Origin: Streptomyces sp. SID10853
GTDB taxonomy: Bacteria; Actinomycetota; Actinomycetes; Streptomycetales; Streptomycetaceae
DNA length: 64,000 nucleotides
Assembly (NCBI RefSeq): GCF_010548145.1
Contig: NZ_JAAGLN010000008.1
Span: 1 to 64,000 of the forward strand
Direction: 5' to 3'
The notes under the pieces were generated by a model that searched no databases, was not told the origin of the DNA, and saw only the letters and a list, made by a program, of their open reading frames with translations. This document shows, piece by piece, positions 49,239-63,808 of the stretch. Made by a program: the position numbers and the translations under genes. How positions within the stretch are numbered: the stretch's first letter is position 1; each line of letters opens with the position of its first letter.

Positions 49239-50603
49239 ATGCAATCCCCCTCCGAGCCTTCCCCGCCACCCGGCTGCCCGGCGCACGGCGCCGGCCCGCG
49301 CACCCCCCTGTACACCCAGGAATTCGCCAAGGACCCGAAGGCCCACTACGCCTACCTGCGGACGTTCGGGCCCGTCGCACCCGTCGAGCTGGCCCCGGGC
49401 GTGGACGCCGCGCTCGTCACCGACTACGCCGCGGCGCTCCACGTACTGCAGAGCCCCGACACCTTCGTCCGTGACTCGCGCCGCTGGCGCGCGCTGAACG
49501 AAGGACAGGTGCCGCTGGACAGCCCCGTGCTGCCGATGATGGCGTACCGTCCGGGTCCGCTGTTCGAGGACGGGGCCCGGCATCTGAGGCTCCGTCAGGC
49601 AGTGACGGACAGTCTGGCGAAGCTCGACACGCACCAGTTGACCCGGTGGGTGGAGCGCACCGCCACCTATCTGATCAGCCAGTTCAGCAGTCGGGGCAAG
49701 GTCGACCTGATCGGCGACTACGCGCGCCTCGTACCGCTGCTGGTCTTCAACGACCTCTTCGGCTGCCCGGGCGATCTGGGCGACCGGGTCGCCTTCGGCA
49801 TTTCCGGCATCTTCGACGGGACCGACGCACAGAGTGCGAACGATGTCCTGGTGGAGGCGCTGCTGGAGCTGGTCACGCTGAAGCGGGCCCAGCCCGGCGA
49901 CGACATCCTCACCCATCTGCTGCAGCACCCTGCCGGGCTGAGCGACGAGGAGATGATCCCGCAGCTCATCCAGCTCATCGGCGGCGGGTTCGAGCCGATG
50001 TCGAATCTGATCGGAAACGCCCTGCAGATCCTGCTCTCCCAGGGGAGCCAGGCCGACGGTCCGCAGGGCGGCGTCATCCTCGTGGAAGACGCCATCAACG
50101 ACGTTCTGTGGAACAGCTGCCCGATAGCCAACTACGCCACGCATTTCCCCCTGTACGACGTCGAACTGTCGGGCATCAGGCTCAACGCCGGCGACCCGGT
50201 GCTCATCTCCTTCGCCGCCGCCAACTCCGACCCGAACCTCTCCGCGGGCCGGGGCACGGTGAGCAGGCGCGCCCACCTGGCCTGGGGTGCGGGCCCGCAC
50301 GCCTGCCCGGCGAAGGACCCGGCGATGATCATCGCCGTTCAGGCCATTGAGAAACTGCTCAACGAACTGCCGGACATCGAGATGTCGGTGGACCCCGACG
50401 CACTCGTGTACCGGCCAGGCCCCTTCCACCGCGCACTCGGCTCGCTGCCGGCCCGGTTCACCCCGGTCCGCAGCACACGGCCGCGAACCGGCCTGAACCC
50501 AGGCGCAGTCCAGACCCCGCAGGGCGGCCGGGCGGAGGCAGCGCCTGCCGCCGCGCAGAAGGGCAAGTTCTGGAGCGGCTTCCTGGCCTGGTGGAAGGGG
50601 TGA
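49239..50603 (+). CDS. Conservon cytochrome P450 (CYP157-like) lacking ExxR
   Basis: A 454-residue P450 encoded 12 bp after cvnD, in the position of CvnE/RarE proteins. The haem-thiolate loop is intact: WGAGPHACPAKDP with the cysteine at about residue 353. The I-helix reads LIGGGFEPMSNLIG, with proline where the oxygen-activating threonine normally is. The K-helix ExxR motif is replaced by DVLW in AINDVLWNSCP; loss of ExxR is what I recall for the CYP157 family. A ~45-residue C-terminal tail ends in FWSGFLAWWKG, a possible membrane or protein contact. Monooxygenase activity is therefore doubtful and a haem-sensing role conceivable. Confidence 0.88.
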   Translation: MQSPSEPSPPPGCPAHGAGPRTPLYTQEFAKDPKAHYAYLRTFGPVAPVELAPGVDAALVTDYAAALHVLQSPDTFVRDSRRWRALNEGQVPLDSPVLPMMAYRPGPLFEDGARHLRLRQAVTDSLAKLDTHQLTRWVERTATYLISQFSSRGKVDLIGDYARLVPLLVFNDLFGCPGDLGDRVAFGISGIFDGTDAQSANDVLVEALLELVTLKRAQPGDDILTHLLQHPAGLSDEEMIPQLIQLIGGGFEPMSNLIGNALQILLSQGSQADGPQGGVILVEDAINDVLWNSCPIANYATHFPLYDVELSGIRLNAGDPVLISFAAANSDPNLSAGRGTVSRRAHLAWGAGPHACPAKDPAMIIAVQAIEKLLNELPDIEMSVDPDALVYRPGPFHRALGSLPARFTPVRSTRPRTGLNPGAVQTPQGGRAEAAPAAAQKGKFWSGFLAWWKG

Positions 50604-50611
50604 TCAGGCCA

Positions 50612-52543
50612 CTAACGCCCCACCGGCTCCCGAATGCCTGATGTGCGCAGGTGCCATGTGGACCAGGTGTCTTCCTCGTCTCCGATCCGTCCGCCACTGG
50701 CGATCGGCACGGCGGCGAGGAATTCATCCGGCAGGTCGAAGGCATCCACCAGCGTCAGCATGTGAGGCGCGAGCGCGGCGATCACGTCGGTCGTCGCACC
50801 GTGGAACGCGCGTACGTGGTCCGCGGTCAGCAGGCCCTCCGCGAGCAACTCCCCGGTGTGGGCGCTCAGCTGACGGAGCAGGAACAGCCGGCACAGATCC
50901 TCCAGCAGGGTCCGCGCCACCGGATCCGCCGTCCGGGCCGCGGCATCGATGAACGCGTCGGCGGCCAGGCGGCAGGCGTGCACCGAGACCATGTCGAGAG
51001 CGGGCGTGGACGCCGCGTTCCAGCGTCCGAGCGGATCGCCCGCCGGGCCGCGGCGCAGAGCGGTCCTCGCCCGGTCCTGCGCGGCGGACTCGGCCTCCAC
51101 GAGGAGAGCGCGCAGAAAGGAGAGATCGGTCAGCGACCGCTCCTCAAGCGGCACAGCGGACCGATGGCCCCGCTCCACCTCATGGCCGAAGATCATTTCG
51201 GCCCCCGCCTTCACCCAGATGACGAGATTGTCGCCTTCCGCCGTGATGCCGCCCTCTATGTTCAACGGCAGATCCGAAATCCCGTTGACCGGGAAGAGCC
51301 CCTGCGCCCCGCACCGCTCCCGGGACTCGATCGCGATCTCCCTGGCCTGCCAGCTGATCCAGCCCTTCGCAACAGCGACCAGACGCTCGGTCTCCGCCCG
51401 GTTCTCCGCCGTGTGCCCGACCCATCGGGAGACGACCTCCCGGTGCAGGAACGTCATGGCGTACGCCGTCGCTGTCGCGTCCAGCAGCCTGCCGTGATGG
51501 CTGCGGTGCGCCACCAACGGCACCCGCTCCCCGAGCTTCGGCCCGCTGATGTGCCGGGTATGAGCGTGCCGTACCGCGATGGTCAGTGCGGCGCGCGACA
51601 TCCCGAGGGTGCCCGCGCTCATGCACAGCTTGCCGATGGTGACGCGCCCGATCGAGTGCAGGAACCGCTTCCGCGCACTGCCCAGGCTGCTGTGCAGTGT
51701 TCCGTCCCGGTCGAGCCGGCCGTGCTCCGCCTCCAGCAACGCCTCGCGAGGTAAACGCACTTGGTCGAACGAGGTGAGGCAGTGGTCCACCGGGGTGCCG
51801 GTACGGTCCGGAAGCTCCCGGACATGGACCCCGGGCACCCGGCCGGCCTCGTCGCTCAGCGGCGTCAGGAAGAGGAAGCACCCCTGGTCCACTCCGTCGA
51901 CCAGCAGCCGGGCCGCGACGACCGCGCTCTTCGGACCGCCGGCCAGGCTGGTGTTCGGCATGAACTTCTGGGCGCCGGGCGTGGGGGTGTGCAGGATGAA
52001 CCCGCCGGTCTCCCGGTCGAGTTCGGCGGTCGTCCCCAGCGCCGGAGCGTCATTGCCGTGGTCCAGCTCCGTACAGAGGAAGGTCCCTATGCGGCGCATC
52101 GACGTGAACTCGGAGACGTCGCGCCCGGCGGTGCCGGCACTCTGGTCGAGCAGGCTTCCCAGGAACAGGTTGTAGTGGATGCTGGCCAGCGTGCAGAGGC
52201 CGCCGTCCACCACCCCGGTCCACTCGTGCAGCGCGCAGAGCCGCCGGATGTCGAAGGCCAGGGCCGCGGCATCACCGGCCGCTTCGTTGACCATACGCAG
52301 CCGGGAGTACGAGAGCTGGACACGCTCTGCGGGGGTGAGCCCGGGACGGTGCCGGAATGCCTCCGTGGCGATGAGATCCCGCCAGGGTCCATGCACCCGT
52401 GCCTGCTCCTCGCCGTCGAAGAGGAGACGGGCCAACCCACGGCTCCGGGCGGGCACCTCTACCGCTCCCCCCTCCTTCGGCAAATAGCTCCGTTCCGACG
52501 CGACTTCAAGGAGATCCTTGTCGTAGACAGGCTGCATGGTCAC
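50612..52543 (-). CDS. Acyl-CoA oxidase/dehydrogenase family protein, with a TTA codon
   Basis: A 643-residue flavoprotein of the acyl-CoA oxidase type. GTG 52543 has GGAG 6 nt upstream; ATG 52537 is also possible. FAD-domain cues are GTFLCTELDHGND, GAQKFMPNTSLAGGPKSAVVAARLLVDG and the helical domain with ARHAHTRHISGPKLGE-like sequence. A long C-terminal helical region is typical of peroxisomal-type oxidases. The base glutamate is not certain, with LNIEGGITAEGDNLV in the expected area. Codon 264 is TTA (51752-51754). It converges with the conservon P450, the two stops being 8 bp apart. Confidence 0.8.
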   Translation of the reverse strand: MTMQPVYDKDLLEVASERSYLPKEGGAVEVPARSRGLARLLFDGEEQARVHGPWRDLIATEAFRHRPGLTPAERVQLSYSRLRMVNEAAGDAAALAFDIRRLCALHEWTGVVDGGLCTLASIHYNLFLGSLLDQSAGTAGRDVSEFTSMRRIGTFLCTELDHGNDAPALGTTAELDRETGGFILHTPTPGAQKFMPNTSLAGGPKSAVVAARLLVDGVDQGCFLFLTPLSDEAGRVPGVHVRELPDRTGTPVDHCLTSFDQVRLPREALLEAEHGRLDRDGTLHSSLGSARKRFLHSIGRVTIGKLCMSAGTLGMSRAALTIAVRHAHTRHISGPKLGERVPLVAHRSHHGRLLDATATAYAMTFLHREVVSRWVGHTAENRAETERLVAVAKGWISWQAREIAIESRERCGAQGLFPVNGISDLPLNIEGGITAEGDNLVIWVKAGAEMIFGHEVERGHRSAVPLEERSLTDLSFLRALLVEAESAAQDRARTALRRGPAGDPLGRWNAASTPALDMVSVHACRLAADAFIDAAARTADPVARTLLEDLCRLFLLRQLSAHTGELLAEGLLTADHVRAFHGATTDVIAALAPHMLTLVDAFDLPDEFLAAVPIASGGRIGDEEDTWSTWHLRTSGIREPVGR

Positions 52544-53011
52544 GAGGCACTCCGCAAGAACGCTTTACACCAGTGAATAGAAAGCTGAAACAAGTGAATA
52601 CCGGCCGACGCGCCTTCTCCAGAGCTGGCGTGATCTTTTTTTGAGCGGAAGATCACTGCGGAAATGGCTTGATGAAGAGGGCGGTCTCTATTACCCTCGG
52701 CGCTCACCCGACTCCAGTGCGTAAGATGACAGATCGGGCAAAAATAGAAATTTAACTGGATATCGCCGGAGCGGCAGGCGATGTTTATCCATCGGGTCAC
52801 GCGGGGTATTCTCTTCGGTGGCGGTGCGAAACGGCACCTCATTCACCACGTAAAGCAACGCGTCCGCCGGGGCGGCAGTTTCCATCGCCGTCCTTATTCA
52901 GAGTCTCAAAAGAAAGATTCCCTGTAAAGGAAATAGCCGGATAACTTACCTGCGGTACGGCGAATCGTTGCATGGAATGCCGCGGCCGGCCCCAGCCGGC
53001 CGGGCGTGGAT
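52544..53011. other. Low-GC gap upstream of the acyl-CoA oxidase gene
   Basis: This 470-bp stretch is visibly AT-richer than the rest. It holds an inverted repeat with perfect 8-bp arms (GTGATCTT 52630-52637, AAGATCAC 52649-52656) 87 bp before the oxidase start. It also holds short minus-strand frames with unusual codon use: 64 codons from ATG 52885 with AAGGA upstream, and 44 codons from ATG 52973. None resembles a family I know. Confidence 0.45.
52691..52885 (-). CDS. Possible small ORF in the low-GC gap (doubtful)
   Basis: A 64-residue frame from ATG 52885, preceded by AAGGA at 5-6 nt spacing. The product starts METAAPADALLYVVNEV and has no motif I recognise. Third-position GC is low for Streptomyces, so it may be foreign, regulatory or not translated. 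It is listed because the ribosome site is good and no other gene covers the stretch. Confidence 0.2.
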   Translation of the reverse strand: METAAPADALLYVVNEVPFRTATEENTPRDPMDKHRLPLRRYPVKFLFLPDLSSYALESGERRG

Positions 53012-53845
53012 TCAGCCGGTGGCGGCGATGAACTCCCGCAGTACCGCGACCAGTTGTTCCGGCCGGTCCTCGGCGATCAGTGTGCCGCTGTCCTCGATCT
53101 CCACGAGCCGCCCCTGCGGCAGTAGTTCGGCCAGACGCCGTCCGTGCGCCCTGGGCATCATCCGGTCCTCCGGCGCCCACACGACGAGCGCGGGCCTGTC
53201 GAACGTCCGCAGTCCTTCGGCGGCCTCCAGCAGCTCCGTCCTGCGTACGCCGAGCCCGTAGCGGCGGAAGTCCTCACGGATCGCCCTGTCGGTGAGCAGC
53301 GGGCGCAGCCAGCCGTCGACGATCCCGTCGGGGACCGGCCGCTTGGTGAGCGCACCGAAGCCGACCGGCAGCCGGCGCAGCGGTCTGATCGCGAGCGTAC
53401 GGACCAGCAGGGGGATGCCGCCCGGCACCCGGCAGGCCAGCGTGATCAGCTTGCCCGGGATTCCCGGCGGGTAGTTGTCGAACGCCTCACAGGCCGTCAG
53501 GACCAGCCGGGCGAGCCGCTCCGGGTGCCGGACGGCGACGGACTGGGCGCGGCCGCAGTCGTTCTCGACCAGGGTGACGTCACTCAGCTCCAGCCGGTCG
53601 AGGAACTCGGCGATGAGCTCCACCACCGAATCCGGCGTCAGCGGTACGTCCCGGCGCATGGGGGTGCGGTGCGCGCCGTACGGCAGGGTGGGCGCGAGCA
53701 CGCGGTGGCCGGGGCGCAGCCCCTCGATCACCTTGCGCCAGACGGTGGCGTCGTGCACGAGCCCATGGAGGAGGACGACGACGGGGCCTGAGCCGCCGGT
53801 GTCCACGTAGTCGACGGTGCCTGCGGTGAGTGTGATCTCGGGCAT
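53012..53845 (-). CDS. Alpha/beta-fold hydrolase of the anthranilate cluster
   Basis: A 277-residue alpha/beta hydrolase. ATG 53845 lies 1 bp after the RidA stop, so the genes are co-translated. The oxyanion motif is VVVLLHGLVHDATVW (about residue 27). The nucleophile elbow reads LVENDCGRAQSV, with aspartate rather than serine, as in epoxide hydrolases and haloalkane dehalogenases. The acid region is VVWAPEDRMMP. Where the catalytic histidine is expected the sequence is EDSGTLIAEDRP, with no histidine. It might hydrolyse a ring-opened or CoA intermediate of the pathway, but a non-hydrolytic role cannot be excluded. Confidence 0.78.
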   Translation of the reverse strand: MPEITLTAGTVDYVDTGGSGPVVVLLHGLVHDATVWRKVIEGLRPGHRVLAPTLPYGAHRTPMRRDVPLTPDSVVELIAEFLDRLELSDVTLVENDCGRAQSVAVRHPERLARLVLTACEAFDNYPPGIPGKLITLACRVPGGIPLLVRTLAIRPLRRLPVGFGALTKRPVPDGIVDGWLRPLLTDRAIREDFRRYGLGVRRTELLEAAEGLRTFDRPALVVWAPEDRMMPRAHGRRLAELLPQGRLVEIEDSGTLIAEDRPEQLVAVLREFIAATG

Positions 53846-53846
53846 G

Positions 53847-54245
53847 TCAGGACAGTACGGCCACTCCATCGATTTCGACCATCGCCTGCTCGTCCCAGAG
53901 CCGCGTGGCGCCGATCACCGCCATCGCCGGGTAGTCGCGGCCTGCCAGCCTGCGCCAGATACGGCCCAGTTCGGCGGCGTGGGCACGGTAGTCGGCGACA
54001 TCGGTGGCGTACACCGTGACCCGTGCGAGGTCGGCCGGGCCGCCGCCCGCGGCGCGCAGCGCGGTGAGCAGATTCGTGAGGGCCACCTCGAACTGGGCCG
54101 GGAGGGTGGCCCCGGCGACCCGGCCCGCACCGTCCAGGGCGGTCTGCCCGGCCAGGAAGACCAGCCGGTTCCCGGTGGCGGTGACGGCGTGCGAGAACCC
54201 GGCGGGCGGGGAGAGCTGCGGCGGGTTGACCCGGTCGAGGCTCAT
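53847..54245 (-). CDS. RidA (YjgF/UK114) family enamine/imine deaminase
   Basis: A 132-residue trimeric RidA-type protein. It shows NRLVFLAGQTALDGAGRVAG, QFEVALTNLLTALRAAGGGPADLARVTVYATDVADY and the C-terminal AMVEIDGVAVL. The conserved arginine of true RidA (in the R-x-C/A-x-E motif) is not clear, so it may belong to an Rid2-7 subgroup. It sits between an acyl-CoA dehydrogenase and a hydrolase in a 2-aminobenzoate pathway whose ring-reduced product is an enamine, which suggests it releases ammonia from that intermediate. Confidence 0.85.
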   Translation of the reverse strand: MSLDRVNPPQLSPPAGFSHAVTATGNRLVFLAGQTALDGAGRVAGATLPAQFEVALTNLLTALRAAGGGPADLARVTVYATDVADYRAHAAELGRIWRRLAGRDYPAMAVIGATRLWDEQAMVEIDGVAVLS

Positions 54246-54290
54246 ACGGACAGCTCCTTGGCGTCGGCTCGGTCAGGACTCATCCATCAC

Positions 54291-55418
54291 TCATCCGTGC
54301 GGTTCATCGGCCGCGTACAGCTCCTTGGCGATGATGGTCCGCTGGACCTCGGTCGCGCCCTCGTAGATCCGCGGGGCGCGGACCTCGCGGTAGAGGTGTT
54401 CGAGGAGGTGGCCGCGCTGGAGGGCGCGGGCGCCGTGCAGCTGGACTGCGGCGTCCACGACGTACTGGGCGGTCTCGGTGGCGAAGAGTTTGGCCATGGC
54501 GGAGCGTTTCGCGATGCCGGGGTCGCCCGCGTCGCAGGCGGCAGCGGCCGCGTGGACCAGCAGACGTGCGGCCTCGGTACGGGTGGCCATCTCGGCGACC
54601 TGGTGGGCCACGGTCTGCAGGTCCTTCAGCGGCCCGCCGAACGCGGTGCGCCGTGCGGTGTGCCCGATGGTCGCGTCCAGGGCGGCCTGTGCCATCCCGA
54701 CCGCGAAGGCGCCGACGCTGGGACGGAAGAGGTTCAGGGTGTTCATCGCGACCCGGAAGCCGCGGTCGGGCTCACCCAGGACGTCCTGCGGGCCGACCGG
54801 CACCGCGTCGAAGTGCAGTGTGCCGATGGGGTGCGGCGAGAGCATGTCGAGCCGGGCGCCGGTCAGGCCCTGCCGGCTGGCCGGCACCAGGAACGCGGTG
54901 ATCCCACGGGCCCCCGCCCCCTCGGTCGTACGGGCGAAGACGGTGTAGAAGTCGGCGTCGGGGGCGTTGGAGATCCAGCACTTCTCGCCGGTGAGCCGCC
55001 ATCCCCCGCCGTCCGGTGCGGCTCTGAGCTCCAGGGCGGCGGCGTCCGACCCCGCGCCGGGCTCGCTCAGCGCGAACGCGGCGACGGTCCGGCCCGCGAT
55101 CACCCCGGGAAGGAGGCGTTCGCGCTGGCGCGCGGTGCCGGCCTGGACGAGGGGGAAGCTGCCGAGGCCCTGGAGGGCCAGCGCGGTCTCCGCCTCCGTG
55201 CAGCCGTACGCCAGGGACTCCCGCAGCAGACAGAGGTCAACCGCACCGGCCCTGAACAGCCGCTCCAGCAGGCCGGATGCGCCGAGTGCGGCGACCAGGG
55301 GCCGGTTGACCCGGCCGGGCTCACCGGCCGCGGCGAGCGGGCCGAACTCCTCGGCGGCCAGGGTGCGCAGCTCGGCGCACCACTTCCGCTGGTCCGGGTC
55401 CAGCGCGAATGCGGTCAT
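54291..55418 (-). CDS. Acyl-CoA dehydrogenase
   Basis: A 375-residue flavin dehydrogenase with the standard three-domain order. FAD/substrate motifs are ALSEPGAGSDAAALE (about residue 117), EKCWISNAPDADFYTVFAR, GFRVAMNTLNLFRP and RTAFGGPLKDLQTVAHQVAEMA. The catalytic-base region near the C-terminus reads YREVRAPRIYEGATEVQRTIIAKEL, with the glutamate of YEGATE. ATG 55418. It heads a minus-strand unit with ridA and the hydrolase and is divergent from the aryl-CoA ligase across 85 bp containing the shared operator-like motif. Confidence 0.92.
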   Translation of the reverse strand: MTAFALDPDQRKWCAELRTLAAEEFGPLAAAGEPGRVNRPLVAALGASGLLERLFRAGAVDLCLLRESLAYGCTEAETALALQGLGSFPLVQAGTARQRERLLPGVIAGRTVAAFALSEPGAGSDAAALELRAAPDGGGWRLTGEKCWISNAPDADFYTVFARTTEGAGARGITAFLVPASRQGLTGARLDMLSPHPIGTLHFDAVPVGPQDVLGEPDRGFRVAMNTLNLFRPSVGAFAVGMAQAALDATIGHTARRTAFGGPLKDLQTVAHQVAEMATRTEAARLLVHAAAAACDAGDPGIAKRSAMAKLFATETAQYVVDAAVQLHGARALQRGHLLEHLYREVRAPRIYEGATEVQRTIIAKELYAADEPHG

Positions 55419-55443
55419 CCCCGATCCCCTCTATCGTGAACCG

Positions 55444-55471
55444 TTGACTGTCGTCACGCAAACGATACGCT
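55444..55471 (+). promoter_or_regulatory. Ligase promoter with the cluster motif TGACTnnCGTCACG
   Basis: TTGACT (55444-55449) and TACGCT (55466-55471) at 16-bp spacing make a good promoter for the ligase. TGACTGTCGTCACG (55445-55458) overlaps its -35 box. The same 14-bp element, 12 of 14 positions identical, occurs at 60492-60505 before the hydratase. Confidence 0.55.
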
Positions 55472-55503
55472 CCATGTGCGATGCCGCCTAAGGGGGCGAT
55501 CCT

Positions 55504-57105
55504 GTGATGGAGCTGAAAACCTCAGCGCACGTCGACACTTTTCCCCGTGAGCAGTTGCCGCCCGCCGACCAGTGGCCCCGGCTCCTCCTCGACGACCTGC
55601 CGGGACCGGCGTATCCGGACCGGCTCAACTGCGGCGTGGAACTGCTGAACGGGACCATCGAGCGCTTCGGCGCCGACCGCCCCGCCTTCCGCACCGGCTC
55701 CGGTGAGCTGTGGACGTACGGCGAACTACGGGCCCAGGTCGGCCGTATCGCCCACGTCCTCACATCGGACCTCGGGGTCGTGCCGGGCAACCGGGTGCTG
55801 CTGCGCGGCCCCACCACACCCCATCTGGCCGCCTGCTGGCTCGCGGTGATGAAGGCCGGCGGTGTCGCGGTGACCGTACTGGCCACCCAGCGCCCGCACG
55901 AACTGGCCGAGGTGTGCTCGCTCGCCCGGATCAGCCACGCGCTGTGCGACATCCGCTCCGCCGAGGACCTGGTTAAGGCGGAGGTGCCGGGGCTGCGGAT
56001 CACGACGTACGGCGGCGGGGGGCCGCAGGACCTGCAGCGGCTGGCCGCGGCCAGACCGGCGCTGTATCCGGCCGTCGCGACCTCGGCCGACGATGTGGCG
56101 CTGATCGCCTTCACATCGGGCACCACCGGGCGCCCCAAGGGCTGTATGCACTTCCACCGCGATGTGCTGGCCGTCGCGGACACCTTCGCGCGGCACGTGC
56201 TGAAGCCCAGGCCCGACGATGTCTTCGCCGGCAGTCCGCCGCTCGGGTTCACCTTCGGCCTGGGTGGTCTGGTGATCTTCCCGCTGCGCGCCGGAGCGTC
56301 GGCGCTGCTGCTCGAACGGTCCGGGCCGCGCCAGCTGCTGCCCGCGCTCGCCCGGCACCGGGTGTCGGTGCTGTTCACGGCGCCGACCGCGTACCGCACC
56401 ATGCTGGACGAGCTGGACCGGTACGACATCTCGGCCCTGCGCCGCTGTGTATCGGCCGGTGAGAACCTGCCGGCGGCCACCTGGCATGCCTGGCACGAGC
56501 GGACCGGGCTGCGCCTCATCAACGGCATCGGTGCCACGGAGCTGCTGCACATCTTCGTGTCGGCGGCGGACGGGGCGGCGCGCCCCGGGACGACGGGGGT
56601 CGCGGTGCCCGGCTGGCAGGCCAGGGTGGTGGACCGCGCCGGCCACCCGGTGCCCGACGGCGAGCCCGGCCTGCTCGCGGTGCGCGGCCCGGTGGGCTGC
56701 CGCTATCTGGCCGACGAGCGCCAGTCGGAGTACGTACGGGACGGCTGGAACATCACCGGCGACACCTATCTGCGCGACGGGGACGGCTACTTCACCTATG
56801 TGGCACGCGCCGACGACATGATCATCTCCTCCGGCTACAACATCGCGGGCCCCGAGGTCGAGGACGCCCTGCTGCGCCATCCCGACGTCCTGGAGGCGGC
56901 GGTGGTCGGCCGCCCGGACGCAGAGCGGGGGCAGGTGGTGGTGGCCCATGTGGTGCTGCGCGAGGGAGCGGTACGGGAGGCGGAGCCGCTGCGGGAGTTC
57001 GTGAAGTCGGAGCTGTCGCCGCACAAGTGCCCCCGGGAGGTGGTGTTCGCGGAGTCCCTGCCCCGGACCGGCACGGGCAAGCTCCAGCGGTTCCGGCTGG
57101 AGTGA
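55504..57105 (+). CDS. Aryl-CoA ligase, probably 2-aminobenzoate-CoA ligase
   Basis: A 533-residue AMP-forming acyl-CoA synthetase. GTG 55504 has AAGGGGG 7 nt upstream; ATG 55507 is equally possible. The P-loop is LIAFTSGTTGRPKGCMHFHRD (about residue 200). Other core motifs are LINGIGATELLHIF, WNITGDTYLRDGDGYFTYVARADDMI and the C-terminal lysine in PRTGTGKLQRFRLE. The N-terminal DRLNCGVELLNG pattern belongs to the benzoate/2-aminobenzoate ligase group. With the neighbouring fused monooxygenase/reductase, activation of anthranilate is the best-supported role; salicylate is the alternative. Confidence 0.88.
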   Translation: MMELKTSAHVDTFPREQLPPADQWPRLLLDDLPGPAYPDRLNCGVELLNGTIERFGADRPAFRTGSGELWTYGELRAQVGRIAHVLTSDLGVVPGNRVLLRGPTTPHLAACWLAVMKAGGVAVTVLATQRPHELAEVCSLARISHALCDIRSAEDLVKAEVPGLRITTYGGGGPQDLQRLAAARPALYPAVATSADDVALIAFTSGTTGRPKGCMHFHRDVLAVADTFARHVLKPRPDDVFAGSPPLGFTFGLGGLVIFPLRAGASALLLERSGPRQLLPALARHRVSVLFTAPTAYRTMLDELDRYDISALRRCVSAGENLPAATWHAWHERTGLRLINGIGATELLHIFVSAADGAARPGTTGVAVPGWQARVVDRAGHPVPDGEPGLLAVRGPVGCRYLADERQSEYVRDGWNITGDTYLRDGDGYFTYVARADDMIISSGYNIAGPEVEDALLRHPDVLEAAVVGRPDAERGQVVVAHVVLREGAVREAEPLREFVKSELSPHKCPREVVFAESLPRTGTGKLQRFRLE

Positions 57106-57110
57106 GGGGG

Positions 57111-57257
57111 ATGACGCGAGTTTCGCGGCGATGGGGTGCTGCGCCGTCCCCCGTACTGCTCTTCACCGACATCGCGAACCCGACCAGCAACGGCGTGTAC
57201 CGGCGCATCGGATACCGGCCCCTGGCCGAGCGGGTCGTCGTCACCCGGGCGGCCTGA
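57111..57257 (+). pseudogene. C-terminal fragment of a GNAT acetyltransferase
   Basis: A 48-codon frame starting 5 bp after the ligase stop. Its second half, VLLFTDIANPTSNGVYRRIG followed by YRPLAERVVV, is the acceptor-side end of a GNAT domain (N-x-x-S-N-x-x-Y-x-x-x-G-Y). The acetyl-CoA-binding Q/RxxGxG/A part is missing, and no upstream frame supplies it because the ligase occupies that DNA. It is a relic of a deleted gene. Confidence 0.55.
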
Positions 57258-57264
57258 CCATCCG

Positions 57265-59568
57265 TCACATCAGTGTGAGCCGGGGTTTCGGGGCGTCCGT
57301 GCGGCCCGTCATCGGGGGGCGGCTGCCCGCGCGGTACGGGAGGGGCCAGGGTGCGGCCGGGCCCGTGTAGCCCTGTTCCGCTGCCGCGTGCAGGGTCCAG
57401 TGCGGGTCGTACAGGTGCGGGCGGGCCAGCGCGCAGAGGTCCGTACGGCCCGCCAGCAGCAGGGAGTTGACGTCGTCCCAGGACGAGATCGCGCCCACCG
57501 CGATCACCGGCACGCCCAGTTCGTTGCGGATGCGGTCGGCGAACGGGGTCTGGTACGAGCGGCCGTACGCGGGTTTCTCGCCGGGCACGACCTGCCCGGT
57601 CGAGACGTCGATCGCGTCGGCCCCGTGGGCGGCGAAGGCGCGGGCGATCGCGACCGCCTCATCCGGTGTCGTGCCGCCCGGCGCCCAGTCGGCCGCCGAG
57701 ATACGGACTGTCATCGGCCGGTCTCCGGGCCACTCGGCCCGTACCGCGTCGAAGACCTCCAGCGGGAAGCGCAGCCGGCCCCTGAGCGAGCCGCCGTAGC
57801 CGTCGGTGCGCCGGTTGGTGAGCGGGGAGAGGAAGCCGGAGAGCAGATAGCCGTGCGCGCAGTGCAGTTCGATGAGGTCGAAGCCGGCGCTCGCGGCACG
57901 GCGGGCCGCCGCGGTGAACTCCTCGCGCACCGCCGCGAGTCCGGCTCCGTCCAGTTCGGCCGGGATCTGGCTGACACCGGGGCGGTACGGGAGCGGGGAG
58001 GCGGCCGACAGTGGCCAGTTGCCCTCGGGAAGTGGCTCGTCCATGCCGTCCCACATGAGCCGGGTGGAGCCCTTGCGCCCGGAGTGCCCCAGCTGGACCC
58101 CGACGGCGGTACCGGGCGACTGCGTGTGCACGAAGGAGGTCACGCGCCGCCAGGCCGCCGCCTGTTCGCCGGTGTAGAGGCCGGTACAGCCGGGGGTGAT
58201 ACGGCCGTCGGCGCTCACACACACCATCTCGGTCATGACCAGACCGGCGCCGCCGAGTGCACGGGCGCCCAGATGGACGAGGTGGAAGTCGCCGGGCACA
58301 CCGTCGTGCGCCGAGTACATGTCCATCGGTGAGACGACGACACGGTTGCGCAGTTCGAGACCGCGCAGCCGCAGCGGCGTGAACATCGGCGGTGTGCCGT
58401 CCGGGCAGCCGAAGTCGCGCTCCACCGTGTCCGTGAAGCCGCTGTCGCGCAGCCGCAGATTGCCGTGGGTGACCCGGCGGCTGCGGGTCAGCAGGTTGAA
58501 GGCGAACTGCCGTGGCGGCTGGCCGAGATACATGTCCAGCTGCTCGAACCACTCCAGGCTGGCCGCGGCCGCCCGCTGGGTGGAGGCGACGACCGGGCGG
58601 CGCTCGCTCTCGTACGCCTCCAGGGCCGACGGCAGGTCGGGCTGCTCCTCGATGTTCGCCGCCAGGGCCAGGGCGTCCTCGACGGCGAGCTTGGTGCCGG
58701 AGCCGATGGAGAAGTGCGCGGTGTGGGCCGCGTCGCCGATCAGCACCGTGTTCCCGTGCGACCAGCGATCGTTGACGACGGTACGGAACGCCGTCCAGGC
58801 GGAGTTGTTCCCGGTGAGCGGCCGGCCGCCGAGCGCGCCCGCGAAGATCCGGGCGCAGCGCTCGGTGGACTCCTTTTCGTCGCAGCGGTCGAGTCCGGCG
58901 GCCTGCCAGACCTCCTCGCGCATCTCGACGATGACGGTGGAGGCGGCGGGCCCGTACGGGTACCCGTGCAGCTGCATCACCCCGTGCTCGGTCTCGGCGA
59001 TCTCGAAGCGGAAGGCGTCGAAGGCGAAGGGCGCGGAGAGCCAGATGTAGCGGCAGCGGTGGGTGGTGATCCGGGGTGCGAAGACGTCGGCGTGGGCGCG
59101 GCGGGTGGCGCTGTGCACTCCGTCGGCCGCTACCACCAGGTCGTGGGTCGCGGCCAGTTCGGCGGGGGGCGGCGCTTCGGCGCGGAAGCGGATCCGTACG
59201 CCGAGGGAGCGGCAGCGCTCGTGCAGGATCTCCAGGAGCCGGCGCCTGCCGAGCGCGGCGAATCCGTGGCCGCCCGAGGTCAGGGTCGTGCCGCGGTGGA
59301 CGATGTCGATGTCGTCCCAGCGTACGAACTCGGCCTGGAGGGCGCGGTGGACGGCCGGGTCCGCCTGCTCGATGCCGCCGAGGGTCTCGTCGGAGAGGAC
59401 GACGCCGAAGCCGAAGGTGTCGTCGGGGGCGTTGCGCTCCCAGACGGTGACGGACCTGGCCGGGTCGAGCCGCTTCAGGAGGGCTGCGGCGTAGAGGCCG
59501 CCGGGTCCGCCGCCGACGACCGCGACCCGCAGGGCGGGGCGGGTGCGCTCGCCGGTGCCGGCCGGCAC
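57265..59568 (-). CDS. Bifunctional anthraniloyl-CoA monooxygenase/reductase
   Basis: A 767-residue fusion of two flavoenzymes. The N-terminal half is a class A flavin monooxygenase: FAD motif VAVVGGGPGGLYAAALL, DG-type VVAADGVHSATRR (about residue 150) and GD motif TVLIGDAAHTAHFSIGSG. From about residue 395 the rest is an Old-Yellow-Enzyme/2,4-dienoyl-CoA-reductase-like barrel with FTPLRLRGLELRNRVVVSPM and HCAHGYLLSGFLSPLTNRRTD. This pairing is that of 2-aminobenzoyl-CoA monooxygenase/reductase, which hydroxylates and reduces the ring. Salicylyl-CoA 5-hydroxylases share only the first half. GTG 59568 lies just after the hydratase stop; GTG 59586 is the other start. Confidence 0.88.
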   Translation of the reverse strand: MPAGTGERTRPALRVAVVGGGPGGLYAAALLKRLDPARSVTVWERNAPDDTFGFGVVLSDETLGGIEQADPAVHRALQAEFVRWDDIDIVHRGTTLTSGGHGFAALGRRRLLEILHERCRSLGVRIRFRAEAPPPAELAATHDLVVAADGVHSATRRAHADVFAPRITTHRCRYIWLSAPFAFDAFRFEIAETEHGVMQLHGYPYGPAASTVIVEMREEVWQAAGLDRCDEKESTERCARIFAGALGGRPLTGNNSAWTAFRTVVNDRWSHGNTVLIGDAAHTAHFSIGSGTKLAVEDALALAANIEEQPDLPSALEAYESERRPVVASTQRAAAASLEWFEQLDMYLGQPPRQFAFNLLTRSRRVTHGNLRLRDSGFTDTVERDFGCPDGTPPMFTPLRLRGLELRNRVVVSPMDMYSAHDGVPGDFHLVHLGARALGGAGLVMTEMVCVSADGRITPGCTGLYTGEQAAAWRRVTSFVHTQSPGTAVGVQLGHSGRKGSTRLMWDGMDEPLPEGNWPLSAASPLPYRPGVSQIPAELDGAGLAAVREEFTAAARRAASAGFDLIELHCAHGYLLSGFLSPLTNRRTDGYGGSLRGRLRFPLEVFDAVRAEWPGDRPMTVRISAADWAPGGTTPDEAVAIARAFAAHGADAIDVSTGQVVPGEKPAYGRSYQTPFADRIRNELGVPVIAVGAISSWDDVNSLLLAGRTDLCALARPHLYDPHWTLHAAAEQGYTGPAAPWPLPYRAGSRPPMTGRTDAPKPRLTLM

Positions 59569-59570
59569 GG

Positions 59571-60398
59571 CTACCTGCCCTGCCACTTGGGGGGCCGCTT
59601 CTCGGTGAAGGCGGCGTGGAACTCTGCGTAGTCCTCGCCGTTCATCAGCAGCGCCTGCGTGGTGGCGTCGAGTTCGACCGCAGCGGCGAGCGGCATGTCG
59701 AGTTCGGCGGTGAGCAGCGCCTTGGTCTGCGCATACGCCAGCGCCGGGCCCTCGGCGAGCCTGCGGGCCAGCGCCGCGGCCCGTTCGTCGGCCCTGCCCT
59801 CGTCCGTCATCTCGCTGATCAGGCCGATGCGCTCGGCCTCGGGCGCCAGGACGGGCTCCCCCAGCATCAGCAGCCGGGTGGCGTGTCCGAGGCCGACGAC
59901 GCGCGGCAGCAGATAGGCGGCGCCCATGTCACCGCCGGACAGCCCCACCCGGGTGAAGAGGAACGCGAAGCGGGCGGTCGGGTCCGCGACCCGGAAGTCG
60001 GCGGCCAGCGCGAGGACGGCGCCGGCGCCCGCGGCGACCCCGTGCACGGCGGCGATCACCGGGAAGGGGCACTCGCGCAGCGCCCGTACGACCTGTCCGG
60101 TCATCCGGTTGAAGTCGAGGAGCTGGGCGGTGTCCAGGGCGAGTGTGGCGCCGATGATCTCCTCGACGTCACCACCCGAGCAGAATCCGCGGCCCTCCCC
60201 GGCGAGGACCAGGGCCCGTACCGACCGCTCGCGGGACAGCTCGGCGAGCAGGTCGCGCAGGTCGGCGTAGGCGCCGAAGGTGAGGGCGTTGAGCTTTCCT
60301 GGGCGCGCGAAGGTGACGGTCGCGACGCCGTCCTGCCGGGCCACCCGGAGGTGGTCCCAGTGCTCCACTCGCTCCGCTGAGCCGGAAAAGGGGCTCAT
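59571..60398 (-). CDS. Enoyl-CoA hydratase/isomerase family protein
   Basis: A 275-residue crotonase-fold enzyme. ATG 60398 begins MSPFSGSAERVEHWDHLRVA; the frame opens earlier without support. The oxyanion elements are GEGRGFCSGGDVEEI (about residue 70) and VHGVAAGAGAVLALAADFRVA (about 120). The catalytic glutamates of the 2-enoyl-CoA hydratase are not both in place (FLFTRVGLSGGDMGAAYLLPR with Gly-Gly-Asp), hinting at a ring-handling homologue. It is directly upstream of the monooxygenase/reductase, in the same operon, and is expected to act on the CoA-bound ring product. Confidence 0.88.
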   Translation of the reverse strand: MSPFSGSAERVEHWDHLRVARQDGVATVTFARPGKLNALTFGAYADLRDLLAELSRERSVRALVLAGEGRGFCSGGDVEEIIGATLALDTAQLLDFNRMTGQVVRALRECPFPVIAAVHGVAAGAGAVLALAADFRVADPTARFAFLFTRVGLSGGDMGAAYLLPRVVGLGHATRLLMLGEPVLAPEAERIGLISEMTDEGRADERAAALARRLAEGPALAYAQTKALLTAELDMPLAAAVELDATTQALLMNGEDYAEFHAAFTEKRPPKWQGR

Positions 60399-60488
60399 GA
60401 GGTGCGGCCTCCTTCGGTCGGGGGCGCGTCCGGCGGCCGGCCGGAGACCCGGTGGAAGAGCGGCGTGCCCCCTCAAATTATCACTCCC

Positions 60489-60506
60489 CCGTGACTACCG
60501 TCACGG
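60489..60506 (-). promoter_or_regulatory. 18-bp palindrome before the hydratase gene
   Basis: CCGTGAC-TACC-GTCACGG has perfect 7-bp arms and contains the motif TGACTACCGTCACG shared with 55445-55458. On the minus strand GTGACG followed 16 bp later by GATAAT looks like a promoter, with the palindrome on the -35 and spacer. It is a probable repressor site for the anthranilate cluster. Confidence 0.55.
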
Positions 60507-60664
60507 GCACGCGATAAAACCTTGGACGGGTCCCCCGGCGGAAGTCCCGTCAGAATGTGGCGCAAGTCCCTTTTCCTCCGGGCCGCTGCCTCTACTCGCA
60601 ACGCCCCCGGCTCCGTATCGTTGAAATCAGGACAACCCCCTCCACACCGAACGGAACACCAGCC

Positions 60665-61096
60665 GTGCCGGACACCTCACGCCCCGCCTCATGGCGCATC
60701 GCACTGCCGCACACCGCGGCCGCGGTGCCGGTGGCGCGTGCGCTGATCCGTACGGTCCTCGCCGACCTGGAGGGCGAGGAGGCCGCGGACACCGACACGG
60801 CCGAGCTCCTGACGTCCGAACTGGTCGCCAACGCCGTGGAGCACACACTCGGCAGCGACCCCATCGAGCTGGTCGTGGAGGTCCTGCACACCGGCTGCCA
60901 GGTCGAGGTGCACGACCGTGATCCGGTCCCGCCCGGTGATCTGATCCGGACACCGCCCACCGGACCGCCCGACCCCTGGCAGGAGCACGGCCGCGGCCTG
61001 CTGCTCATCCGGACACTCAGCTCGTCCTACGGCCACCGCCCGACCGAGCACGGCAAGGCCGTCTGGTTCACGCTTCCGGCGGGTCCTGCGGACTGA
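60665..61096 (+). CDS. RsbW-like ATP-binding (anti-sigma type) regulator
   Basis: A 143-residue GHKL ATPase of the single-domain anti-sigma/SpoIIAB-like group that is abundant in Streptomyces. GTG 60665 is the likely start; TATCGT at 60616-60621 may be the -10 box. The N box is LTSELVANAVEHT (about residue 48), the G1 region VEVHDRDPVPP and the G2 box GRGLLLIRTLSSSYG. Partner sigma or STAS proteins are not adjacent. Its 3' end overlaps that of the permease by 29 bp, tail to tail. Confidence 0.85.
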   Translation: MPDTSRPASWRIALPHTAAAVPVARALIRTVLADLEGEEAADTDTAELLTSELVANAVEHTLGSDPIELVVEVLHTGCQVEVHDRDPVPPGDLIRTPPTGPPDPWQEHGRGLLLIRTLSSSYGHRPTEHGKAVWFTLPAGPAD

Positions 61097-62534
61097 GCTG
61101 CCGCGCGCCGAGCCGCGAGCGGCGGCGCCCGTAGAGTGCGTAGACGGCCGCGCCCACCAGCAGGAAGAGCGCGAATTCCAGCCAGGTGCGCCGACCGGTC
61201 CCGTACATCAGATACACACAGAACGCGACGCCGAGCACCGGGCTGACGGGGAACAGCGGCACCCGGAAGGTGCGCGGGAGCGCGGGGTGGCTGCGGCGCA
61301 GCGCGAGCACCGCGACATTCACGGCCACCATCGTGGCCAGCGCCCCGATGGTCGTCAGGTCGACCACGACGTCGAGCGAGGCGAACGCGGCCGGGACGGC
61401 GACGACGGTCGCCACGATCCAGGTGTTGGAGACGGGCGTCGAGGTCTTCGGGGAGACCTTCTCGAAGACCGGGGGAATCAGCCCGTCGCGGGACATCGAC
61501 ATCAGGATGCGGGTCTGCCCGTACATCACGGCGAGCACCACCGACGCGATGGCGACGACCGCGCCGAAGGCGATGACACCGCCGCCGGCCGACGAACCTG
61601 TGACCTGGTTGACGATCAGCGAGAGCGCCGCGGGCCGGTCGGCGACGGCGGGCGCGCCGAACGCGCCGATGGCCGCGACGGCCACCGCGCAGTAGAGCAC
61701 GGTGACGATGCCGATGCAGATCATGATGGCGAGCGGGATGTTGCGCCGCGGGTTCCTGACCTCCTCGCCCGCCGTGGTGATCGCGTCGAATCCGATGTAC
61801 GAGAAGAAGGCGATCGAGGCGCCGGACGTGACGCCGCCGACGCCGCCGGGCGCGAACGGCACCAGGTGGCCGTCCCGGAACGCGGTGAAGGCGACCGCGC
61901 AGAAGACCAGCAGGATGCCGATCTTCAGTACGGCCATCGCGGCGGTGGCCCGGGCGCTCTCGCGGACACCGCGCACCAGCAGCGCGGCGGCGAGCGCGAC
62001 CACCACGACAGCCGGCAGATTGATCACCCCGCCGTCGCCCGGACCGCTGGAGAGCACGGCGGGCAGCTGGTGTCCGACCAGGCTGTTCAGCAGTTCGTTG
62101 AGGTACTGGCTCCACCCGACGGCGACCGCGCTCACCGAGATGCCGTACTCCAGGAGCAGACACCAGCCGACCAGGAAGGCGGTGCGCTCGCCGAGTGTGG
62201 CGTACGCGAAGGAGTACGAGCTGCCCGACACCGGGATCGCGCCGCCCAGCTCGGCGAACGAGAACGCCGTGAAGACACAGGTGACCGCGGCGAGTACGAA
62301 CGAGACGATGACCGCGGGCCCGGACTTGGCCACGGTGTCGGAGAGGCCGACGAAGATACCGGTCCCGACGATGGCCCCGACGCCGAAGCAGACCAGCTGG
62401 AAGAGCCCCATGGTGCGGCGGAGGCCGTGCCCCTCCAGATCCGCGCCGGATTCGGCGATCAGGAGTTCGGGCGACTTGACGCGCAGCCCCGGCCGGTGGG
62501 GCGGCCGGGGTCGTGCGGGGCGGGGAGAGCGCAT
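61068..62534 (-). CDS. APC-family amino acid permease
   Basis: A 488-residue transporter with about 12 helices. ATG 62534 gives MRSPRPARPRPPHRPGLR, a basic cytoplasmic start. The APC core shows VCFGVGAIVGTGIFVGLSD (about residues 46-64), GSSYSFAYATLGERTAFLVGWCLLLEYG and FFSYIGFDAITTAGEEVRNPRRNIP. It is similar to, but distinct from, the permease at 17806. It lies downstream of arcA-argF on the same strand but behind a strong hairpin and a short leader frame rich in Tyr and Trp, so its expression is probably controlled separately. Confidence 0.9.
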   Translation of the reverse strand: MRSPRPARPRPPHRPGLRVKSPELLIAESGADLEGHGLRRTMGLFQLVCFGVGAIVGTGIFVGLSDTVAKSGPAVIVSFVLAAVTCVFTAFSFAELGGAIPVSGSSYSFAYATLGERTAFLVGWCLLLEYGISVSAVAVGWSQYLNELLNSLVGHQLPAVLSSGPGDGGVINLPAVVVVALAAALLVRGVRESARATAAMAVLKIGILLVFCAVAFTAFRDGHLVPFAPGGVGGVTSGASIAFFSYIGFDAITTAGEEVRNPRRNIPLAIMICIGIVTVLYCAVAVAAIGAFGAPAVADRPAALSLIVNQVTGSSAGGGVIAFGAVVAIASVVLAVMYGQTRILMSMSRDGLIPPVFEKVSPKTSTPVSNTWIVATVVAVPAAFASLDVVVDLTTIGALATMVAVNVAVLALRRSHPALPRTFRVPLFPVSPVLGVAFCVYLMYGTGRRTWLEFALFLLVGAAVYALYGRRRSRLGARQLSPQDPPEA

Positions 62535-62665
62535 GGGGGTGGGGGTTCTCTTTCCGGACGTGCGCGGAGCGGCGCGCACTGCGGCACACAGCACAGTGGG
62601 GTCCGGGCGTGCGAGCCCGGACCCCACCAAGGGACGACATAGTAGCCGCCTTGCCGCATATTCAC
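62459..62665 (-). CDS. Candidate leader peptide ORF with Tyr-Tyr and Trp-Trp codons
   Basis: GTG 62665 opens a frame reading MNMRQGGYYVVPWWGPG and continuing into the permease start. The paired Tyr codons and paired Trp codons lie immediately before and inside the 5' arm of the hairpin at 62596-62627. A ribosome waiting on Trp or Tyr tRNA would cover that arm and stop the hairpin forming, the logic of amino-acid attenuation. TATACG at 62680-62675 could be its -10 box. The lack of an early stop codon is atypical. Confidence 0.35.
   Translation of the reverse strand: MNMRQGGYYVVPWWGPGSHARTPLCCVPQCAPLRARPEREPPPPCALPAPHDPGRPTGRGCASSRPNS
62596..62627 (-). terminator. Terminator or attenuator between argF and the permease
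   Basis: Perfect 13-bp arms GTGGGGTCCGGGC and GCCCGGACCCCAC with a 6-nt loop, 55 bp after the argF stop and 62 bp before the permease start. It either ends arcA-argF or acts as the attenuator stem of the leader described at 62459-62665. Confidence 0.75.
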
Positions 62666-62681
62666 CCAACTGGGCGTATAA

Positions 62682-63689
62682 CTATCCCCGACCGGCCAGG
62701 GTGGCGACGAGCACCGCCTTGATCGTGTGCATCCGGTTCTCGGCCTCGTCGAAGACGACCGAGTGCTCCGACTCGAAGACCTCGTCGGTGACCTCCAGCT
62801 CGCTCAGCCCGAACTGCGCGTGGATCTCACGCCCGACCCGCGTCCCCAGATCGTGGAAGGCGGGCAGGCAGTGCAGGAACTTGACCCCGGGGTTACCGGT
62901 GGCGCGCAGCACGTCCATCGTCACGGCGTACGGCGAGAGCGCGGCGATGCGGTCGGCCCAGACCTCCTTCGGCTCCCCCATGGACACCCAGACGTCGGTG
63001 ACGACGAAGTCGCAGCCCTGCACGGCCTCGGTGATGTCCTCGGTGAGGGTGACGGTCCCGCCGCTCTCCGCGGCCAGCTTCCGCGCCTGCGCCACGATGT
63101 CGTCGGCGGGCCAGTAGGCGCGCGGTGCGGCGATCCGGACGTCGAGGCCGAGCAGCGCGCCGGTGATCAGATAGGAGTTGCCCATGTTGAAACGGGCGTC
63201 GCCGAGGTAGGCGAAGACGACCTGCTCCAGCGGCTTGTCGCAGTGCTCGGTCATGGTGAGCACATCGGCCAGCATCTGGGTGGGGTGCCAGTCGTCGGTG
63301 AGTCCGTTGTAGACGGGGACCCCGGCGTGCGCGGCGAGTTCCTCCACCTGCGGCTGGCTGTCGCCGCGGTATTCGATGGCGTCGAACATCCGGCCCAGCA
63401 CCCGCGCGGTGTCCCTGAACGACTCCTTGTGCCCGATCTGGGAGCCCGCGGGGTCGAGGTACGTCGTCGACGCCCCCTGATCGGCCGCGGCCACCTCGAA
63501 GGCGCACCGCGTCCTGGTGGAGGTCTTCTCGAAGATCAGGGCGATGTTCCGGCCGCGCAACCGCTGCACTTCGGCGCCCGACTTCTTGGCCGCCTTGAGC
63601 TCGGCGGCCAGCTCGATCAGAGCGCGGAACTCCTCCGCGGTGAAGTCGAGCTCCTTGAGGAAGTGGCGGCCTGCGAGGTCTATCGCCAT
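62682..63689 (-). CDS. argF: Ornithine carbamoyltransferase
   Basis: A 335-residue trimeric transferase linking carbamoyl phosphate and ornithine to citrulline. ATG 63689 has AGGAG 8 nt upstream. The carbamoyl-phosphate loop is [16 protein letters not shown] (about residue 55). Other motifs are [35 protein letters not shown], the ornithine-binding DVWVSMGEP and [10 protein letters not shown] with the catalytic cysteine. It lies directly downstream of arginine deiminase, so it may work in the catabolic direction (citrulline phosphorolysis), in which case arcB would be the better name. A carbamate kinase is not visible here. Confidence 0.95.
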
Positions 63690-63786
63690 GGTGGCTGCTC
63701 CTGGGTCACGCGGAGAGGGGTCGCGCGTAGCGGGGACGGGGGTCGGTGCGGGATGCCGTACGTGCTGACATCCACGCATGCTGGAA

Positions 63787-63806
63787 TTCTATGCGATTGA
63801 ACGCAT
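63787..63806. promoter_or_regulatory. Inverted repeat between arcA and argF
   Basis: ATGCG and CGCAT (5-bp perfect arms) flank ATTGAA in an AT-rich patch just after the arcA stop. It could be an ArgR or other regulator site or merely a small hairpin; the evidence is weak. Confidence 0.25.
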
Positions 63807-63808
63807 CA

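Follow-up and report, generated by a model that had tools for sequence, protein, structure and literature searches.

A Rid-family protein without the catalytic arginine accompanies the fused monooxygenase/reductase of a presumed Streptomyces anthraniloyl-CoA pathway and may remove its nitrogen

Anthranilate (2-aminobenzoate) can be degraded aerobically as its coenzyme A (CoA) thioester, and the biochemically studied enzyme that joins a monooxygenase to an Old-Yellow-Enzyme (OYE) reductase is the 2-aminobenzoyl-CoA monooxygenase/reductase. The Azoarcus (Aromatoleum) evansii cluster published by Schuehle and co-workers in 2001 reportedly includes a 'putative translation inhibitor' gene; the association of a Rid-family protein with the cluster is thus not new. 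The 2-aminobenzoyl-CoA monooxygenase/reductase and the aerobic pathway have been described (PMC4539516). For Arthrobacter sp. Rue61a, expression and assay of the ligase encoded on pAL1 showed that it forms anthranilate-CoA, growth was reported on anthranilate and not on salicylate, and a second, chromosomal ligase and fused-enzyme gene was noted (PMC3534580). 'Due to a lack of knowledge', a 2022 curation of catabolic pathways (PMC9007349) omitted the route from tryptophan through anthraniloyl-CoA monooxygenase/reductase, and because of this omission the lower half of the pathway seems unsolved. Here, a presumed cluster of this kind was analyzed in 64,000 nucleotides of Streptomyces sp. SID10853 (contig NZ_JAAGLN010000008.1, positions 1 to 64,000; this whole stretch is called the window), with emphasis on the Rid-family protein that it encodes.

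Six predicted genes were located at 53012-60398 of the window, within a 7.77 Mb draft genome (Table 1). The fused enzyme carries a flavin adenine dinucleotide (FAD)-dependent monooxygenase and an OYE-type reductase in one protein, the mark of the anthraniloyl-CoA monooxygenase/reductase pathway, and it passed NCBIfam model NF006101 (1212.5 bits, cut-off 1078), which is named 'bifunctional salicylyl-CoA 5-hydroxylase/oxidoreductase'. Salicylyl-CoA 5-hydroxylases of the SdgC type are free-standing monooxygenases without an OYE domain; the window enzyme has that domain and was set apart from SdgC by this description. The ligase scored 335 bits in the benzoate-CoA ligase family TIGR02262, under the cut-off of 375. 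Genes for tryptophan 2,3-dioxygenase and kynureninase are adjacent on contig C494 of the same genome, and related clusters were found on a quinaldine plasmid, near alkylquinolone genes and, in Ruegeria, beside tryptophan dioxygenase. The substrate is very probably anthranilate, because the homologous pAL1 ligase was assayed, because of these related contexts, and because of the tryptophan dioxygenase/kynureninase pair in the genome. An initial annotation, made from the letters of the window, had proposed CoA-dependent anthranilate degradation, and the NF006101 match, the identity of the ligase to that of pAL1 (54%) and the tryptophan dioxygenase/kynureninase genes support it: by family matches, the cluster belongs to a known kind, the aerobic degradation of anthranilate through 2-aminobenzoyl-CoA, in the form that it takes in Streptomyces.

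With the A. evansii pathway, the cluster shares a ligase, a fused monooxygenase/OYE reductase, beta-oxidation-type enzymes and a Rid-type gene, the A. evansii inventory being in part as reportedly published. With the Rue61a pAL1 cluster it shares the ligase (54% identical over its full length), the fused enzyme (61%), the Rid (51%) and a TGACGNNCGTCA site, and PaaX-type regulators are present in the pAL1 cluster. The pAL1 cluster differs in having an FAH-family hydrolase, a cupin and a thioesterase, and no enoyl-CoA hydratase-like (ECH) or acyl-CoA dehydrogenase (ACAD) gene of the window type within 9 kb. Positions 47501-64000 of the window gave no match to the SDR or MarR proteins of the Paracoccus cluster. 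Clusters of the Streptomyces type normally include a gene for a PaaX regulator, which has been lost in the window.

We propose that the Rid-family protein acts on the product of the fused enzyme. The ligase would convert anthranilate to anthraniloyl-CoA, the fused flavoenzyme would oxygenate and reduce it to 2-amino-5-oxocyclohex-1-ene-1-carbonyl-CoA, the Rid would hydrolyse that enamine to 2,5-dioxocyclohexane-1-carbonyl-CoA and ammonia, and a C-C step would then open the ring; its catalyst would be the crotonase-family protein in the window and other hydrolases in Arthrobacter-type clusters. Retro-Claisen cleavage to 4-oxopimeloyl-CoA would be a natural next step, and is plausible because the dioxocyclohexane CoA product would be a beta-keto thioester. 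The ligase and fused-enzyme steps are presumed from family membership and published relatives, we infer the Rid chemistry from near-obligate co-occurrence, and ring opening and the later steps are conjecture. The full scheme, with the Rid acting on the fused-enzyme product, is given a probability of roughly 60%.

Co-occurrence was determined in three samples. A set of 89 loci comprised the best 80 of 592 genome matches to the fused enzyme, 8 of 95 plasmid records and the window; it leans to close relatives, as 40 loci (window included) are Streptomyces of the window type, and the window fused enzyme was 74-85% identical to its counterparts in 38 Streptomyces loci of this type. One kind of Rid was encoded in 71 of the 89 loci. 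Ten of the 18 Rid-less loci end early at contig ends and eight were traced further (two of the eight, L116 and L123, are truncated at one end as well): six of these genomes carry a high-scoring Rid, one metagenome-assembled genome does not, and for one the search covered a plasmid only. The ligase, fused enzyme and Rid recur jointly in loci of Actinomycetota, Pseudomonadota and Deinococcota, so the arrangement is not due to chance. The grouping described in the initial annotation was confirmed by coordinates and family matches, the alpha/beta hydrolase being an occasional neighbour only.

The first draw consisted of 396 genomes of the window's phylum (the phylum names of both draws were derived from named loci). 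The search for the fused enzyme used one query, the protein of the window, at E <= 1e-150, and the Rid lineage was defined as 117 bits or more, the next score being 101. Strong fused-enzyme matches were present in 42 genomes (in G085 and G352 in part or as two pieces), all of them among the 52 genomes with the Rid lineage. The 23 genomes with a Rid match and no strong fused-enzyme match were re-searched with a fused-enzyme profile. Ten of these had the Rid lineage, and the profile recovered pieces of the fused enzyme in five, a full copy in one (G170) and none in four; the other 13, with weaker Rids only, had no full fused enzyme (G225 and G227 matched its OYE half). Totals were 48 genomes with both, 4 with the Rid only and 0 with the fused enzyme only, the last a soft zero, as the remaining 331 genomes were searched with the single protein only. 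The association gave a Fisher P of ~1e-57, shared ancestry not being corrected for. In the second draw (398 genomes, phylum of a Cupriavidus genome), both searches were made by profile, and 71 genomes had the fused enzyme, 69 the Rid, 69 both, 0 the Rid only and 2 the fused enzyme only. Because the second, profile-based draw carries the point, confidence is unaffected by the soft zero of the first.

A tree of 125 Rid sequences fully separated 100 pathway-type Rids from 25 others, with 0 misplaced and a support of 0.80; Streptomyces rows were thinned to 6, the own genome contributed 8 of its 12 paralogues (minimum length 90 residues), and 53 first-draw rows had been preselected by a profile of the same lineage. 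In 31 of 42 first-draw genomes, the Rid and fused-enzyme genes shared a contig and were separated by no more than 7.0 kb. Co-occurrence and synteny strongly support that the Rid is a dedicated pathway part, which upholds the earlier suggestion of a dedicated rather than a housekeeping role. Near-obligate co-occurrence of Rid and fused enzyme is a new addition to the known cluster association. No publication joining Rid proteins and the 2-aminobenzoyl-CoA pathway was found in a search judged from titles, abstract starts and term counts, with most subscription literature outside it; the relevant passages of PMC6449761 connect Rid proteins with the regulons for benzoate and catechol and make no link to the anthraniloyl-CoA pathway.

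Two types of cluster were distinguished by their downstream genes. ECH and ACAD genes are present in the Streptomyces type and in Paracoccus, Sinorhizobium, Ruegeria and Deinococcus, and a cupin and a thioesterase in 22 of 88 loci, 17 of which have an FAH-family hydrolase. None of these 22 matched the window ECH and ACAD inside the locus, and the Rid was encoded in 21, the exception being an 8.3 kb contig. The Rid is kept in both types despite the differing downstream genes, which argues that it acts right after the fused enzyme, before the branches part. This bears on the alternative of a Rid that serves for clean-up or at a later step: it would act on a reactive enamine or imine side product or on an intermediate after ring opening, and the fused-enzyme product would lose its nitrogen mainly spontaneously or through another enzyme. 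Damage pre-emption is the best-known role of RidA (PMC4433059), the product of the fused enzyme reportedly loses its amino group by hydrolysis and is acid-unstable (PMC3534580), and Rid and fused enzyme lay on different contigs in 11 of 42 first-draw genomes, many of them fragmented drafts. Against this, a late intermediate specific to one type is unlikely for a protein found in both, and a clean-up role does not predict near one-to-one co-occurrence; we regard the alternative as unlikely.

The window Rid has Met108 at the position of the RidA catalytic arginine (Arg105/107), aligned with the arginines of 3r0p and 3k0t; its best solved match, 5v4f, has Asn there. At this position, the 71 cluster Rids have Met (69) or Leu (2), and the 54 high-scoring Rids of the first draw have Met (38), Thr (5), Ile (4), Val (3), Leu (2), Lys (1) or Ser (1). 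All 30 second-draw Rids given as loci, of 86 matches listed, have Met. Arginine was thus found in 0 of 155 lineage rows examined, from sets that overlap by possible shared species and by repetition of the window gene itself. Loci L019 and L024, which contain stops, were left out of the alignments (that of the fused enzyme had 10 rows), and the 71 cluster Rids omit a 72nd, weak match, which is an additional Rid of L110 and carries Ser in place of the arginine. Searching the 89 loci for a hidden arginine-type Rid with 11 own-genome Rids (phmmer, E 1e-4) returned the same 72 frames and no others. The window genome has 13 Rid-family matches; among the 10 that cover the position, only the cluster Rid has Met. 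As a strict signature of the lineage, Met108 was rejected, since 16 of the 54 first-draw Rids have T, I, V, L, K or S; only the absence of arginine holds throughout. The active-site Glu (Glu124 in the window) was kept in 72 of 72 rows.

Sixteen weaker Rid matches of the first draw (L169-L184, 81-100 bits) also lacked the arginine (Ser 11, Ala 2, Ile 2, Thr 1); they often read YPASS, and 15 were from genomes without a full fused enzyme (the exception was G177). Ten second-draw genomes (G437, G513, G561, G602, G619, G689, G691, G737, G767 and G786) had an extra Rid match of 131-137 bits.

The window Rid scored 40.9 bits against NCBIfam TIGR00004, below the cut-off of 106.25 for archetypal RidA. 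Its AlphaFold2 monomer (predicted local distance difference test score, 95.5) showed the standard Rid fold, and superposed on YabJ 8yrc with Z 20.0 and a root-mean-square deviation of 1.6 over 124 residues. By these comparisons, the protein is placed in the Rid superfamily (PF01042) but not in archetypal RidA. The initial annotation had considered a RidA protein well suited to nitrogen removal; the tie of the Rid to the pathway stood, whereas the archetypal RidA identity fell, the catalytic arginine being missing across the lineage. That arginine (105/107) contacts the carboxylates of bound ligands, and its mutation nearly abolishes activity (PMC4433059); arginine-less Rid subfamilies were judged most likely not to be imine hydrolases (PMC4433059; PMC5619798). 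Under the published rule that the arginine predicts deaminase activity (PMC5619798), the window Rid should not deaminate. Because the arginine is missing throughout the lineage, deamination by this Rid must work differently or not occur.

In RidA and RutC, which share the Rid fold (Z 20) and the conserved Glu with the window Rid, the catalytic arginine meets a free-acid substrate; here there is Met, and a CoA thioester is the proposed substrate. As a dedicated catabolic Rid that acts on a beta-enamine, RutC is the nearest chemical analogue (PMC4433059, PMC8113886). The 2-aminomuconate deaminase likewise is a Rid-family protein dedicated to nitrogen removal in aromatic amine breakdown, but its substrates are ring-cleaved free acids (PMC6449761); the predicted fold of the window Rid matched AmnE 6izh with Z 18.1 and 20% identity, from the fold-list comparison only. 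Our reading is that the arginine would be dispensable because it binds the carboxylate of a free acid, and anthranilate in its CoA thioester form has no free carboxylate to bind. Arginine loss throughout the lineage, its separateness in the tree and this rationale are additions to the known association. We hold it slightly better than an even bet that this widespread Rid lineage deaminates a CoA-bound vinylogous enamine without the arginine, which would be the pathway's missing nitrogen-removing step and the first enzyme function known to us for an arginine-less Rid group.

Alternatively, having lost the arginine, the Rid may not be a deaminase and may serve the pathway as a tautomerase or isomerase, a binding or scaffold protein, or a sensor. 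The absence in the 71 cluster, 54 first-draw and 30 second-draw rows, the arginine criterion (PMC5619798) and the low TIGR00004 score are all in line with such a function. It leaves unexplained that the active-site Glu is kept in all 72 cluster rows, and that the enamine nitrogen must leave while the genes common to the clusters (ligase, fused enzyme, Rid) encode no other obvious deaminase; we rate a non-deaminase as improbable, a little more so than a clean-up enzyme.

Returning to deamination of the fused-enzyme product, a CoA ester of C7H8O4 was found only in anthranilate-grown Rue61a cells, and its authors thought that it might be cyclohexanedione-carboxyl-CoA (PMC3534580). The acid of 2,5-dioxocyclohexane-1-carbonyl-CoA has this formula, as counted here. 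Several points weigh against an enzymatic deamination by this Rid. Formic acid had been used to quench the cells that yielded the ester, and the compound from which it presumably derives is acid-unstable (PMC3534580); because of this quenching the ester could be non-enzymatic and is no proof of an enzyme. The published tests consulted make the arginine necessary: RutC R104A was inactive on 3-aminoacrylate (PMC8113886), and an arginine-less Rid7 failed to hydrolyse the imine offered to it (PMC4433059). Met as such is dispensable, 16 of 54 actinobacterial rows carrying other residues. The genome-wide Rids were picked by a profile of arginine-less Rids, so that the absence of arginine among them is partly due to selection, and the cluster loci are for that reason the fairer test. 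A fused enzyme was not detected in 4 of 52 first-draw Rid genomes, nor a Rid in 2 of 71 second-draw fused-enzyme genomes and in one genome among the eight traced loci. The activity of the window Rid and its close relatives is putative.

A cluster that in fact degrades salicylate or some other aryl acid, with a Rid unrelated to the ring substituent, is very improbable: the name and score of NF006101 and the placement of the ligase in the benzoate-CoA ligase family, though below its cut-off, speak for it, and the anthranilate assay of the Rue61a ligase with absence of growth on salicylate (PMC3534580), a Rid partner that fits an amine and not a phenol, and related clusters near alkylquinolone genes, on a quinaldine plasmid or beside tryptophan dioxygenase speak against it.

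The activity of this Rid bears on both the lower half of the pathway and the arginine-less subfamilies Rid4 to Rid7, which 'remain mysterious' (PMC4433059). If it deaminates, the arginine rule for Rid deaminases must narrow to substrates that have a carboxylate, and arginine-less proteins annotated as 'RidA' should be re-inspected.

For ring opening, the crotonase-family protein was examined. Canonical enoyl-CoA hydratase has two catalytic Glu (E144 and E164, rat numbering). The window protein lacks this pair: in 54 of 54 homologues above 38% identity, V, I or M stands at the first Glu position and F at the second, and one Asp is kept; the two positions were placed by the family motif, not by alignment with the rat hydratase. 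Its close solved homologue is 3g64 (507.7 bits, full length), named 'Putative enoyl-CoA hydratase', for which the cluster supplies a pathway context; the next nearest solved relatives are PaaG-like, with naphthoate synthase lower. Because both hydratase Glu are missing and one Asp is kept, the protein is a candidate for C-C cleavage, as a ring-opening or isomerizing enzyme, and it may be a BadI-like ring hydrolase. In Arthrobacter-type clusters, the FAH-family hydrolase could perform the same cleavage. The ACAD scored below the cut-off of every NCBIfam model listed, and its YEG motif was kept in 51 of 51 homologues above 40% identity.

A homologue of the alpha/beta hydrolase was found in 5 of 89 loci, window included (some loci end early), and the protein was rejected as a general pathway step. 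Judged by the common elbow and catalytic His motifs of such hydrolases, the window protein and its 4 homologues have Thr at the usual catalytic His position (5/5), and it is perhaps not a normal hydrolase. Neither the distribution nor the Thr supports the proposal of the initial annotation that it opens or releases a later intermediate. The nucleophile elbow of the five proteins has Asp (NDCGR or NDGGR).

The cluster forms three transcription units, not a single operon: ECH and fused enzyme, whose reading frames overlap by 16 bases; the ligase; and, divergent from it, ACAD, Rid and hydrolase, the last starting 1 base past the Rid stop codon. A PaaX-type repressor, MeqR2, is said to answer to anthraniloyl-CoA and to bind TGACGNNCGTCA. 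All 40 Streptomyces loci of the window type, window included, have a site close to GTGACGRCAGTCAC upstream of ECH (against GTGACNNNNGTCAC, 24 exact, 15 with one mismatch, 1 with two). In the gap between ACAD and ligase, a site within 2 mismatches of GTGACNNNNGTCAC was found upstream of the ligase, read from that gene, in 35 of 36 Streptomyces loci (33 with one mismatch, none exact) and upstream of the ACAD in 34 of 36 (32 with one mismatch), window included. In the control of single-base shuffles, 0.4-0.9% had at most 1 mismatch and 9-10% at most 2; the loci are related, so the counts are not independent. The two window sites (Table 1) are two of five matches to GTGACGNNRGTCAM in the genome, a reversed-pattern control giving 3. 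Matches to TGACGNNNGTCA in 20 loci of other types fell in 16 distinct places (23 counting both strands) in 12 loci, with 8 loci lacking one; four control patterns gave 2.25 matches on average.

PaaX homologues were found in 67 of 88 loci, and a PaaX-family gene adjoins the ligase in all 35 other Streptomyces loci that include the ligase. It is absent from the window cluster, where the gap between ligase and fused enzyme is 159 bases. A remnant in this gap has counterparts in four relatives (L059, L076, L078 and L080), located between their fused-enzyme and PaaX genes, and probably marks a deletion that removed PaaX and left the two presumed operators. The closest PaaX in the window genome, on contig C173, is 55% identical to the PaaX of L047; the other in-cluster Streptomyces copies (n = 34) are 63-95% identical to it, all above the C173 copy. 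With the in-cluster PaaX gone and the closest paralogue at 55% only, control of the cluster may have been lost or taken over by the C173 paralogue.

Table 1. Coordinates of predicted genes and presumed regulatory sites of the cluster, in positions of the window.
Feature	Position	Strand	Remarks
Alpha/beta hydrolase	53012-53845	-	277 aa; Pfam PF00561/PF12697; accessory
Rid-family protein	53847-54245	-	132 aa; PF01042, 61.3 bits (cut-off 27.3)
Acyl-CoA dehydrogenase (ACAD)	54291-55418	-	375 aa; PF00441/PF02770/PF02771; motif YEGATEVQR
Presumed PaaX-type operator GTGACGACAGTCAA	55444-55457	-	between divergent ACAD and ligase genes
Aryl-CoA ligase, presumed anthranilate-CoA ligase	55504 (GTG) or 55507 (ATG)-57105	+	533 aa; PF00501, 250 bits, and PF13193
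C-terminal remnant of a GNAT-like gene	57106-57258	+	from translation and tblastn; GNAT name is a reading, without family match
Fused FAD monooxygenase and OYE reductase	57265-59586	-	773 aa; PF01494 at 20-337, PF00724 at 401-735
Crotonase-superfamily protein (ECH)	59571-60398	-	275 aa; NF006107, 388 bits (cut-off 330)
Presumed PaaX-type operator GTGACGGTAGTCAC	60491-60504	-	upstream of ECH

Downstream of the cluster and on the same strand, an acyl-CoA oxidase-like protein with ACOX domains is encoded at 50612-52543 (-). Elsewhere in the window, at 40738-42267 (+), an N-terminal helix-turn-helix (HTH_3) is fused to an EPSP-synthase-family domain.

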